Assembly: GCA_903918755.1 (NCBI GenBank)
Contig: CAIXFN010000108.1
Location: 1 to 64,000, forward strand
Length of the DNA: 64,000 nucleotides
DNA from: an uncultured Pedosphaera sp.
Lineage (GTDB): Bacteria; Verrucomicrobiota; Verrucomicrobiia; Limisphaerales; Pedosphaeraceae
Reading direction: 5' to 3'
How positions within the stretch are numbered: position 1 is the stretch's first letter; each line of letters opens with the position of its first letter. This document shows positions 3,681-6,418 of this stretch, in pieces. The notes below the pieces were generated by a model, which made no database searches, was not told the DNA's origin, and saw only the letters and a program-made list of their open reading frames with translations. The position numbers were made by a program, and so were the translations under genes.

Positions 3681-4130
3681 ATGCGACACCTCCTTTTTCC
3701 CCTGGGACTGGCTTTTCTCGGTTCCTGCGCCGCCTTCGCCGGGGATCTCTCGGTCAATAATCTCCGCATCTCACCCGGCGGTGGCACCAGTTCCGGCGGT
3801 AGCTACCAACTGACCACCCGGCTCGGCCAGCCCACCCGTCTCGCGCTCGGCGGCGGCAGTTTCCGCCTGAATACGAGCATCAGCAGTCTCACGGTGATCC
3901 AAACTCCCGGCGCCCCGGTGCTTGACCTGAAAGTCATCGGCCCAAACCTAGTGCTTTCCTGGGCGGTGCCGGCGACCGTATACCGTCTCCAAATGAACTC
4001 TGACCTGGCCCAGACGAATGCCTGGACGCCCGTGATCCAAACTCCCCTCACCAACCAGGGAATCGTCTCGGTCAGCCTCCCGGCCCCCGCCGGCAACCGT
4101 TTCTTCCGCCTCCATCGCGTGGCGCCTTAG
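3681..4130 (+). CDS. Small secreted protein with C-terminal FFRL-type beta domain
   Basis: A 149-residue protein of unknown function. It starts with a signal peptide (about residues 1-20, ending CAAFAG). A short glycine-rich part follows, then a beta-rich C-terminal domain from about residue 70 with the pattern L.W..P..YRLQ.....L....W.P, ending GNRFFRLHRVAP. The same type of ending (FYRV) closes the kelch protein at 15139-17040, so it looks like a recurrent verrucomicrobial secretion-associated or adhesion module. It lies 8 bases after the S74 protein, which suggests joint expression and perhaps joint assembly. A decayed copy of its 3' end lies at 4775-4885. No enzyme motif is visible. Confidence 0.7.
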   Translation: MRHLLFPLGLAFLGSCAAFAGDLSVNNLRISPGGGTSSGGSYQLTTRLGQPTRLALGGGSFRLNTSISSLTVIQTPGAPVLDLKVIGPNLVLSWAVPATVYRLQMNSDLAQTNAWTPVIQTPLTNQGIVSVSLPAPAGNRFFRLHRVAP

Positions 4131-4192
4131 CCCAGCGAAGCGACGCTCTCTCCGATGCCCCGCTCCATCCCTGACTGCCCACCGCTCGGTCT

Positions 4193-4243
4193 AAAAAAGG
4201 GATTCGGCCAAGGCGCCACTGATTGGGGTCCGCCCTGGCCGAA
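4193..4243 (-). terminator. Rho-independent terminator of microprotein copy A
   Basis: On the minus strand, 13-base arms (4231-4243 and 4203-4215) pair with a single G-T wobble across a 15-base loop. ATCCC and a run of six T follow (A-run at 4193-4198 on the plus strand). It lies about 50 bases past the microprotein stop codon. Confidence 0.7.
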
Positions 4244-4295
4244 AATGAACCGCCGTAACTTTGCGGCCGGGATTCCCCGACCCGCCACCCGCGCT

Positions 4296-4454
4296 TCAGC
4301 GCAGGAATTTGCGCGCTACCGTGAGCCCCGCAACGCCCACAACAAAGAGCGACGCGGTGGCGCCGCCGTCAGGGACGGGAACTGCCGGGGAGGTATTCGC
4401 CCACATGAGGATGGCGACTGTTACGACGAGGAGGTCCAAGACCGGTTTCTTCAT
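4296..4454 (-). CDS. VPDGG-CTERM microprotein, copy A (52 aa)
   Basis: A tiny protein with two parts and nothing between them. Residues 1-20 are a signal peptide or membrane helix (MKKPVLDLLVVTVAILMWA). Residues 27-31 are VPDGG, then a hydrophobic helix (32-47) and the basic tail RKFLR. The VPDSG/VPDGG-helix-Arg ending is a PEP-CTERM-like sorting signal known from Verrucomicrobiota and handled by exosortase-type enzymes. The start is ATG 4454, because the second copy (6163-6324) is conserved from exactly this ATG. No Shine-Dalgarno is present; ATCAAACACCT precedes the ATG in both copies. Against copy B I count 14 synonymous codon differences, four amino-acid changes and one inserted codon, a coding-type pattern. 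Function is unknown. If both signals were cut, only a few residues would be released. Confidence 0.75.
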   Translation of the reverse strand: MKKPVLDLLVVTVAILMWANTSPAVPVPDGGATASLFVVGVAGLTVARKFLR

Positions 4455-4518
4455 AGGTGTTTGATCTGCGCCGAAATCCCAACGGTAATTCGTCGGAAGA
4501 CGACCATAATGAGGGCGT

Positions 4519-4546
4519 ATAATAAAAAGTGATGCTTCCGAGGCAA
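4519..4546 (-). promoter_or_regulatory. Promoter of microprotein copy A
   Basis: On the minus strand, TTGCCT (4541-4546), a 16-base spacer and TATTAT (4519-4524). Copy B has TTGCGT, 16 bases and TATCAT at the matching place. The predicted leader is about 60 bases long. Conservation of spacing between two otherwise diverging copies is the main support. Confidence 0.6.
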
Positions 4547-4774
4547 GGAAATTGCAAAAATATTTGGACATTTTTTTCCGTCTACCGGCGCCCTTTGTCC
4601 AGACCAGTAAAGAAATCGCTTGCCGTTAAATAGCATGTTTGCCCTCCGGGAGATCTCCCCCCCGGAGCGGCGCGGCTTGACACCAAAATCACCAGTCCCT
4701 TGCAGGTGCGTTTCCGGACCACGCCCGGCGACTAATTGAACGCTCTAAATAAGTGCGCAATTGAAGTTGTTCGT

Positions 4775-4885
4775 TGCCTGGACCGCCATGATCCAGACTC
4801 CCGTCACCAACCGGAAATCGCCTCGGTCGACCTCCCGCCCAGCACCACAAACCTGATTTCCCGCCTCCGCGAGGTCGCGCCATAA
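4775..4885 (+). pseudogene. Decayed 3' fragment of the FFRL-domain gene
   Basis: The DNA from GCCTGGACCGCC to GTCGCGCCATAA aligns with the last about 110 bases of the gene at 3681-4130: W..VIQTP.TN, then VS/VDLP.P, then RL..VAP. It has small indels and substitutions that break the frame. No signal peptide or upstream half is recognisable. It is a remnant of a second copy of this secreted gene or of its last domain. Confidence 0.6.
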
Positions 4886-4907
4886 AAGCACCAAAATGAA
4901 ATAAGTT

Positions 4908-4943
4908 TTGACATGCCTAGTGGCGCTATGCCATAGTAGCGCC
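4908..4943 (+). promoter_or_regulatory. Promoter and putative PadR operator
   Basis: TTGACA (4908-4913) is followed after 18 bases by CATAGT (4932-4937). A dyad covers the -10 region: arms TGGCGCTA (4921-4928) and TAGCGCCA (4937-4944), with the palindrome CTATGCCATAG (4926-4936) inside. Transcription would begin within a few bases of the PadR ATG at 4944, making the mRNA leaderless or nearly so. PadR regulators usually repress their own promoters through such dyads; autoregulation here is inferred. Confidence 0.5.
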
Positions 4944-5282
4944 ATGCTTACAAAGGAATTAGTCGCTGCCAGCACGGTGCCGCTGGTGCTCTCCGTGCTC
5001 GCGGGCGGGGAGAGTTACGGCTATGCGCTGATCCAGCAGGTGCGCGAACTCTCCGCCGGCGAAATTACCTGGACCGAAGGCATGCTTTATCCCGTCCTGC
5101 ACCGCATGGAAGCCGACGACCTCCTGGAATCCGAATGGAAACCCGCCCCCACCGGCCACCGGCGCAAATATTATCGCTTGCTAAAAAAGGGCCGCCAGGC
5201 CTTGCAAACGGAACAGCAACAATGGCTCACTGTCCACCGCACTCTCACCAAACTATGGCCACCCCTCCCGCATTCGATTTGA
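4944..5282 (+). CDS. PadR-family transcriptional regulator
   Basis: A 112-residue winged-helix regulator. The pattern LVLSVLAGGESYGYALIQQV, then TEGMLYPVLHRME, then RRKYYRLLKKGR is the PadR DNA-binding domain. Start at ATG 4944 gives the normal N-terminus MLTKELVAAS; a longer reading from 4908 would begin inside the promoter. The following membrane-protein gene overlaps its 3' end by 28 bases, so the two are translationally coupled, a common arrangement in which PadR controls a membrane or permease-prefix protein. The dyad over its own promoter suggests autorepression. The inducing ligand is unknown. Confidence 0.85.
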   Translation: MLTKELVAASTVPLVLSVLAGGESYGYALIQQVRELSAGEITWTEGMLYPVLHRMEADDLLESEWKPAPTGHRRKYYRLLKKGRQALQTEQQQWLTVHRTLTKLWPPLPHSI

Positions 5283-5953
5283 ACGCTGCCCTGCGCGACT
5301 GGCGTGCCGGACTCGCTGCCTCCCCCGCCTTTAAGCCTGACGATTTGGACCAACTGGAGGCGCATTTGCGCGATTCGGTCGCCACGTTGCAAGCCACCGG
5401 GCTATCCACCAACGAAGCCTTCGTGGTTGCCCAACTCCGCCTCGGCACCCCGGCCGCGCTGGGCGGAGAATTTGCCAAACAGAATTTCGCGAACATTTGG
5501 CTCCAACGGCTGACCTGGCTGGTGGCGGGGTATATGGGGATCAACTTGTTCACCCGATTGGTTTCCTCGCTGGGCACCTTAGCGGCGGTTGCTCTTCATC
5601 AATTCTCCGGCGCCAACCGCCACCTCGCGACCTGCGACCTGCTCGTTCAACTTGCTGTTCTGGTTGGTTCACTGGTTTTCTGCTTTCGGAAGCGGCAACG
5701 CCTTTTTGACCGATTCGCCGTCCGCGTTCACGCTCGCCCACGCCTCTGGAGTTTCCTCTGCTTCGCGTTAATGACCTTGGCTTTTGTGGCGAACGTGTTC
5801 AGCCAAATCTTGACGATGAGATTCCTTCCCGTGAGCCTGTCGGTTGAGGTAGTGCGATGGAACACCATTTTATTCGGAATCGAGTACCTGGGCTCACCGC
5901 TGCTCTTGGCTTGGTTGGTTACCCGTCGGAGCAGGATCAGCGTGGCAAGCTGA
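5255..5953 (+). CDS. Membrane protein with permease-prefix/HAAS-like N-terminal domain
   Basis: A 232-residue protein. Residues 1-75 (LDQLEAHLRDSVATL...GLSTNEAFVVAQLRLG) resemble the soluble helical domain in front of permeases and in PadR-associated membrane proteins (DUF1700/HAAS-like). Residues of about 85-225 form four or five membrane helices. The start is ATG 5255, which overlaps the PadR gene by 28 bases; longer readings have no plausible domain in front. No transport motif is visible, so it may be a small sensor or regulator of a permease encoded elsewhere. It sits between the two VPDGG microprotein units. Confidence 0.65.
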   Translation: MATPPAFDLNAALRDWRAGLAASPAFKPDDLDQLEAHLRDSVATLQATGLSTNEAFVVAQLRLGTPAALGGEFAKQNFANIWLQRLTWLVAGYMGINLFTRLVSSLGTLAAVALHQFSGANRHLATCDLLVQLAVLVGSLVFCFRKRQRLFDRFAVRVHARPRLWSFLCFALMTLAFVANVFSQILTMRFLPVSLSVEVVRWNTILFGIEYLGSPLLLAWLVTRRSRISVAS

Positions 5954-6071
5954 TCCTGAAATATGCCAACTCCAGAATTTCGCCCCCGGGGAAGGGTTTC
6001 CGGCAACCATCCCCAACGACGCCACTTTCGTCGCCTGCGCGGCCCGACCCTTGCTCTGTCTACAAATCAAA

Positions 6072-6112
6072 TTCGGCCACGGCGCCCTTGATTGAGGTCC
6101 GCCCTGGCCGAA
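6072..6112 (-). terminator. Terminator-like hairpin of microprotein copy B
   Basis: Arms 6100-6112 and 6072-6084 pair over 12 of 13 positions across a 15-base loop, matching the copy A hairpin. Unlike copy A there is no clean T-run after it (TTTGATTTG), so it may terminate poorly. Confidence 0.45.
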
Positions 6113-6162
6113 AACGAACTGTCAGTTCCCCGCAACGGGGAGCATTCAGCAATCGTAGCGTC

Positions 6163-6324
6163 TTAGCGCAGCAACTTGCGTACTACCGCCAATCCCGCAA
6201 CGCCCACGACAAACAGCGAGGCAGTAGCACCGCCGTCCGGAACAGGGGGAGGTGCCGGGGAAGTATTCGCCCACATGAGGATGGCGACCGTTACGACGAG
6301 GAGGTCCAATACCGGTTTCTTCAT
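6163..6324 (-). CDS. VPDGG-CTERM microprotein, copy B (53 aa)
   Basis: Paralogue of the protein at 4296-4454. The first 24 residues are identical, then PPP replaces VP before VPDGG (residues 28-32). A helix of the same length follows, with the basic end RKLLR. The first 20 codons differ only at two synonymous positions, although the flanking DNA has diverged more. Start ATG 6324 is shared with copy A, as is the leader just upstream, with no Shine-Dalgarno. It lies on the opposite strand to the PadR pair and to the amylase gene, so it is independently transcribed. Function is unknown; candidate roles are exosortase substrate, envelope microprotein or precursor of a very short peptide. Confidence 0.75.
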   Translation of the reverse strand: MKKPVLDLLVVTVAILMWANTSPAPPPVPDGGATASLFVVGVAGLAVVRKLLR

Positions 6325-6390
6325 AGGTGTTTGATCTTTGGCCGAAATCCCGAAGGTGATTCATCGGAAAATCAACCATGCTGGGCCTGA

Positions 6391-6418
6391 ATGATAAAAT
6401 GTGCCCCCCCAGACGCAA
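6391..6418 (-). promoter_or_regulatory. Promoter of microprotein copy B
   Basis: On the minus strand, TTGCGT (6413-6418), a 16-base spacer and TATCAT (6391-6396). It matches the copy A promoter in sequence and spacing. The leader to the ATG at 6324 is about 60 bases and contains the conserved GGGATTTCGGC block. Confidence 0.6.

Follow-up and report, generated by a model that had tools for sequence, protein, structure and literature searches.

What can a protein do at the cell surface when it consists of a sorting tail with almost nothing to sort? The usual view of an exosortase substrate is of a passenger plus a tail; two genes in a 64,000-nucleotide stretch of DNA from an uncultured Pedosphaera sp. 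(the window) each encode a microprotein with the tail and essentially no passenger. The initial annotation had described them as a duplicated, complete transcription unit for a cargo-less product with a VPDGG sorting signal, and had proposed a count of copies in this genome and its relatives.

The duplicated unit and its products

Both window genes are genuine, and selection acts on their protein products. The same-strand pair was confirmed at the following positions, on the minus strand, together with its flanking elements:

4519..4546, minus strand: copy 1 promoter-like site, TTGCCT-16-TATTAT, 9/12 in a promoter scan (consensus match only)
4455..4500, minus strand: copy 1 leader, from the alignment of the copies
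4296..4454, minus strand: copy 1 microprotein gene, 52 aa, reading MKKPVLDLLVVTVAILMWANTSPA up to the predicted signal peptidase site and VPVPDGGATASLFVVGVAGLTVARKFLR after it
4193..4244, minus strand: copy 1 downstream hairpin, terminator-type by folding, a 13-bp stem followed by a T6 run
6391..6418, minus strand: copy 2 promoter-like site, TTGCGT-16-TATCAT, aligning with the copy 1 site
6325..6370, minus strand: copy 2 leader, from the alignment of the copies
6163..6324, minus strand: copy 2 microprotein gene, 53 aa, reading MKKPVLDLLVVTVAILMWANTSPA up to the predicted signal peptidase site and PPPVPDGGATASLFVVGVAGLAVVRKLLR after it
6072..6112, minus strand: copy 2 downstream hairpin by folding, in a region 84% identical to that of copy 1, with a weak T run

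The two copies are similar from the -35 box through the hairpin, with nothing clear outside these limits, and the final 20 nt of their leaders ahead of the ATG are almost identical. The same unit emerges as repeat families D4, D5, and D7 (95% over 91 nt, 78% over 89 nt, and 84% over a 67-nt hairpin region), which bears out a duplicated array of promoter, leader, gene, and hairpin. Its individual signals fared unevenly: the promoter proposed for copy 1 is a 9/12 consensus match, and that of copy 2 is weaker, scoring 8/12 by eye and falling under the scan threshold. Both hairpins fold more stably than shuffled sequences (-29.8 kcal/mol for 4184-4260, z -2.4; -29.5 kcal/mol for 6053-6120, z -3.9), but a convincing T tail (T6) follows only that of copy 1, and neither passes a strict terminator pattern. 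The hairpin element has no further comparable match in the 7.19-Mb assembly, where other matches are short chance pieces; a genome-wide repeat or REP-like hairpin is ruled out, as just two copies exist in the genome.

Several features lie around the pair. Near the copies, 5′ remnants show signs of local duplication and decay, and 4775-4885 holds a frameshifted remnant resembling the C-terminal end of ORF 3681-4130 (38 nt at 87%), which implies more than one local duplication in this part of the window. On the opposite strand between the copies, 4944-5953 encodes a PadR-type regulator (PF03551) as well as a membrane protein in which a permease-prefix domain (NF038403) scores below threshold. 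The segment 166-3672 encodes a repeat protein of 1168 aa that looks secreted and has a Peptidase_S74 chaperone domain at its C terminus.

Between copies 1 and 2, 15 codons differ synonymously (one more than the 14 first counted), whereas the four replaced codons and the single codon indel stand as annotated. Third positions account for 18 of the 23 substitutions, and dN is 0.055 against a dS of 0.55 (dN/dS about 0.10). The same changes placed at random replace approximately 14 codons, with four or fewer in 0 of 20000 trials, upholding the view that selection acts on the peptide. Four of the other five frames would have 18-19 codons replaced; the antisense frame whose third codon positions coincide with those of the gene has 9, a weaker version of the same pattern. 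Copies 3 and 4, encoded elsewhere in the genome, form a second independent pair under purifying selection (dN 0.042, dS 0.43).

A separate observation concerns the 5′ part of these genes. Substitutions between copies 1 and 2 number 3/72 in the signal-peptide-coding part versus 21/87 in the rest (P 6e-4), and those between copies 3 and 4 (loci L003 and L004) 3/75 versus 15/90 (P 0.011). In both pairs of the genome, the deficit extends to synonymous sites; it is absent from the G208/G209 orthologues. Gene conversion and nucleotide-level constraint are candidate explanations.

Both products share one layout: a predicted signal peptide is followed by a short stub, the VPDGG signal, a membrane helix, and a basic tail. 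The C-terminal VPDSG-CTERM region is recognised in both at curated cut-offs, copies 1 and 2 scoring 23.4 and 29.2 bits against TIGR03778 (cut-off 22) and 27.4 and 29.3 bits against PF18205 (cut-off 25); the proposed sorting signal is thereby substantiated. The N terminus of copy 2 is predicted to form a hydrophobic helix at residues 3-21 and carries an AxA-like site, SPA, located by inspection, as was the signal peptidase site in both copies. The equivalent site is ASA or AMA in relatives (alignment, by inspection). In the fold predicted for copy 2 from its sequence alone (mean pLDDT 77), a linker of 9 residues connects helices 3-21 and 31-52, and solved structures compared with the microprotein gave no relevant match. 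Since the curated cut-offs are passed and the genome encodes two XrtC-like exosortases, the tail is read as an exosortase sorting signal without a passenger.

Relatives, exosortases, and giant neighbours

HemA of this genome is 80% identical to that of a Pedosphaera MAG, marking it as a Pedosphaera-like MAG of the Limisphaerales. The genome holds four microprotein copies, copies 3 and 4 lying on contigs C16 and C40 with 60-62% identity to copy 2; microproteins make up four of its eight VPDSG-CTERM regions over the Pfam cut-off. On C40, 4188-4250 gives a weak extra match to the microprotein C terminus (E 1.04), in another frame and overlapping the end of a RecJ-like gene, which is possibly a decayed copy or chance. 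Six exosortases are encoded, two of them XrtC-like: at 245 and 253 bits against TIGR04151, they score far over any other subfamily and under the strict XrtC naming cut-off of 300. The genome thus contains, in these two XrtC-like enzymes, the cognate exosortase of VPDSG-CTERM signals. A strong XrtC match (>190 bits) occurs in 11 of the 14 genomes with foreign microproteins versus 0 of 11 arbitrary Limisphaerales genomes, one of which has a partial match of 135 bits.

The pair does not stand alone. At least 13 other Limisphaerales genomes encode relatives that also lack a passenger, measure about 51-69 aa, and repeat this layout (G031, G038, G073, G097, G117, G190, G208, G209, G222, G226, G242, G261, and G265), the broad searches having scored the best 16-20 candidates per genome, so that counts of relatives are lower bounds. 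The proposed copy count therefore found conservation beyond the pair, with no frameshifted copies among those read. The other searched genome of the genus has no relative at E <= 0.01, and pattern and tblastn searches of named genome contigs found no close relatives. Matches to the CTERM region itself are mostly ordinary passenger-bearing proteins.

Across 11 aligned microproteins, Met1, Ala at -1, the Pro-rich stub, PD, GL, and Arg are kept, and the signal class changes at the same locus position between VPDGG, VPDAS, IPEPS, and VPEPS. That the class varies while the position stays suggests retention of processing by exosortase rather than of the exact sequence. Further neighbouring same-strand pairs of short CTERM genes were seen in G265:C106, G226:C22, G609:C7, and G694:C3, those of G609 and G694 seemingly without a normal signal peptide.

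What most members have nearby is a giant secreted repeat protein, encoded directly downstream on the same strand for six of the first seven foreign microproteins (found blind to context) and for copies 3 and 4. Linked loci comprise those of copies 3 and 4 and of G031, G038, G097, G117 (C46), G190, G226, G242, and G261, with approximately 100-400 nt between microprotein and giant; in G226, two tandem microproteins, one VPDGG and one IPEPS, precede the giant. The rough chance of the six-of-seven linkage is about 1e-24, and microprotein and giant co-occur across genomes with a Fisher P of about 1e-12 (kinship of genomes ignored). The term cargo-less therefore holds for the product, whereas its usual genomic partner is a large secreted protein just downstream. 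The window copies are exceptions, with no adjoining giant and with convergent or unrelated downstream neighbours; solo relatives also occur in G073, G208, G209, G265, and at G117:C355.

The ten linked giants have a homologous N-terminal domain in common (alignment A3); the repeats behind it are mostly of the SdrD_B, SprB, HYR, PKD, or Ig-like kinds. A search for this domain, blind to microproteins, found it in 22 of 320 genomes of the order. Across the phylum it is absent from 387 other sampled genomes (388 including that of the window, the sole match), and none was found in viral contigs. Six giants outside the profile-building set had upstream DNA that could be read, and a microprotein precedes three of them:

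G217 giant: upstream microprotein with a VPEPS signal
G242:C17 giant: upstream microprotein with an IPDGG signal
G222 giant, cut by the contig end: upstream microprotein with a VPDAS signal

No microprotein was found upstream of the giants of G001, G027, and G097:C61, and the partner is therefore not obligatory. CTERM is absent from every readable giant C terminus, linked or unlinked; its absence in both groups means that it is no proof of sorting in trans, and the complementarity idea—that microprotein-free giants bear their own CTERM—is unsupported. Two further observations concern giant architecture. Four giants (L222, L225, L226, and L227) have in common a Cys-rich C-terminal segment of no known name that might serve in export or surface retention. 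The giant encoded at G001:C37:10500-21102 (L270), from the other genome of the genus, is at least 2757 aa long and has two thioester-like domains, with no microprotein found upstream.

A proposed role and its rivals

The anatomy of the system—coding pattern, selection, signal architecture, copy number, XrtC-like enzymes, and linkage to giants—is solid, and from it we infer a mechanism in which cleavage, transfer, interaction with giants, and action in trans would each have a part. Our leading, if tentative, reading is that the exported exosortase substrates serve giant surface proteins as accessory or docking peptides, which is the simplest functional link because the readable linked giants lack CTERM. 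A Sec-type signal peptide would export the microprotein and be cut after SPA, leaving a very short Pro-rich stub ahead of the VPDGG exosortase signal, membrane helix, and basic tail; the product would then be an essentially passenger-free substrate of an XrtC-type exosortase. With cuts by signal peptidase and at the PD motif, a stub of 4-12 mostly Pro-rich residues would result, which the exosortase may transfer to a surface carrier. Export or retention of the giant could then use an accessory or docking site formed by this stub or, without cleavage, by the two-helix protein lodged in the inner membrane.

The microproteins would accordingly form a Limisphaerales class of passenger-less substrates, most members found being the first gene of a two-gene locus whose second encodes a giant; the giant has a head resembling a thioester domain and a stalk of the SdrD_B, HYR, or Ig-like type, and itself bears no sorting signal. 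With the usual partner just downstream, the microprotein probably works as half of a pair. The window pair is a duplicated solo branch, and its own promoter-like sites and hairpins suggest that it would act in trans, its partners being the two giants encoded at other places in the genome. A stricter version, in which the microprotein is a detached sorting signal supplying in trans the anchor that the giant thioester-like protein lacks (a split exosortase/CTERM arrangement), seems unlikely.

The main rival, which we also regard as rather unlikely, is that the microprotein is a decoy or regulator occupying XrtC and so setting the amount of enzyme free for true passenger proteins, with the duplication acting as a dosage effect and the linkage to giants incidental or for co-regulation. 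It would explain why a passenger is missing and why conservation is limited to features that the enzyme recognises. Copies that stand alone, each with its own promoter and hairpin, suit a free-standing regulator, and the genome offers competitors in the form of four or more VPDSG-type proteins that carry a passenger and score over the cut-off. The recurrent place directly upstream of giants is, however, left unexplained. Proximity to giants at 100-400 nt is instead what would be predicted of a leader peptide, which by being translated or inserted into the membrane would control expression of the giant gene behind it; the scarcity of synonymous changes in the 5′ half of both genome pairs points the same way. 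Yet the solo window copies, which end in their own hairpins with no same-strand gene downstream, argue against this role, and the best-conserved part is the C-terminal exosortase signal, which a leader would not need; we consider a leader improbable.

Equally doubtful is a secreted short peptide, in which signal peptidase and exosortase free a Pro-rich peptide of 4-12 residues that acts extracellularly, for example as a signal. Every member has a short stub between two predicted processing sites, but its sequence varies between members and even between the window copies (VPVPD versus PPPVPD), there is no recurrent neighbouring receptor or regulator, and the PadR gene between the window copies was not seen beside other microproteins. 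The copies might also be evolutionary debris or raw material, empty CTERM cassettes left by loss of a passenger and persisting for a while without function. The modular expansion of CTERM proteins (PMC1569441) and the decayed 5′ remnants by the window copies would fit; purifying selection in two pairs, the lack of frameshifts among the copies read, and recurrent linkage to giants already disfavour this reading, to which we give little credence. Least probable by far is a non-coding RNA or structural repeat instead of a gene. The conserved hairpin and leader speak for it, but the substitution pattern is coding, the hairpin is limited to two copies, and no Rfam family matches at its gathering score (the best being a sub-threshold CRISPR-repeat model, E 0.11).

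The microprotein-giant loci hint at an unrecognised partnership in cell-surface building. A tail-only class, kept by selection beside tail-less giants, suggests sorting in trans or a dedicated small partner, and the microprotein offers a minimal natural substrate for studying exosortase function.

Comparison with known systems

Gram-positive thioester domains contain a Cys motif, a Q-x-A-I/V-W helix motif, and a Gln motif (PMC4450167, PMC6194298). The giant N-terminal domain has invariant W-C-(V/F/I)-(D/E), then (V/I/L)-Q-x-A-I, and later (V/I/F)-Q, with C96, Q169, and Q237 invariant in ten aligned giants, and so displays the thioester motifs in order and at comparable spacing: Cys to Gln measures 141 in the copy-3 giant versus 129-153 in solved class I domains. 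It differs in having W, not Y/F/L, ahead of the Cys, V/I/L, not T, ahead of the helix Gln, and a hydrophobic residue behind the last Gln. Like TIE proteins (PMC4450167, PMC6194298, PMC8092201), the giants have a secreted N-terminal domain with a repeat stalk behind it; unlike them, they have no LPXTG anchor, a Gram-negative host, and no significant profile match.

Searching the giants with PF08341 (hmmscan) gave no match at E <= 10, and the best PF08341 match over 13 genomes falls inside the giant N-terminal domain, weakly (E 0.58). In hhalign against eight class II domains, the probability is 1.5% (P 0.034), with Cys aligned with Cys. The sole match of the giants to solved structures is an SdrD B-repeat behind the N-terminal domain. 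With profile matches this weak, the domain is called just thioester-domain-like, an inconclusive sequence-based assignment without a claim of membership. The linked giants point to thioester-like adhesins in a Gram-negative phylum; a literature search for such adhesins in Verrucomicrobia gave nothing relevant within its partial coverage.

The sorting signal (TIGR03778, PF18205) and its enzyme are already known; the passenger-less architecture and its linkage to giants are new with respect to the part of the literature covered. There, neither the term VPDSG-CTERM nor any conserved class of passenger-less proteins with a link to giant surface proteins was found, and a search for small exosortase substrates gave nothing relevant. 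The microprotein resembles VPDSG-CTERM proteins (TIGR03778, PF18205; XrtC, TIGR04151) in its putative N-terminal signal peptide, PD motif, membrane helix, and basic tail, and in the presence of XrtC-like enzymes in the same genome, but has no passenger domain; most other CTERM matches read are frames of about 150 aa or longer. It shares with the PEP-CTERM/EpsH system (PMC1569441) the same architecture and the same proposed chemistry, and the linked microproteins of G217 and G226 bear the PEP form of the signal. PEP-CTERM genes are mostly single-gene operons with a passenger, and CTERM proteins have expanded as modules (PMC1569441), whereas here a passenger-less gene stands ahead of a CTERM-free giant.
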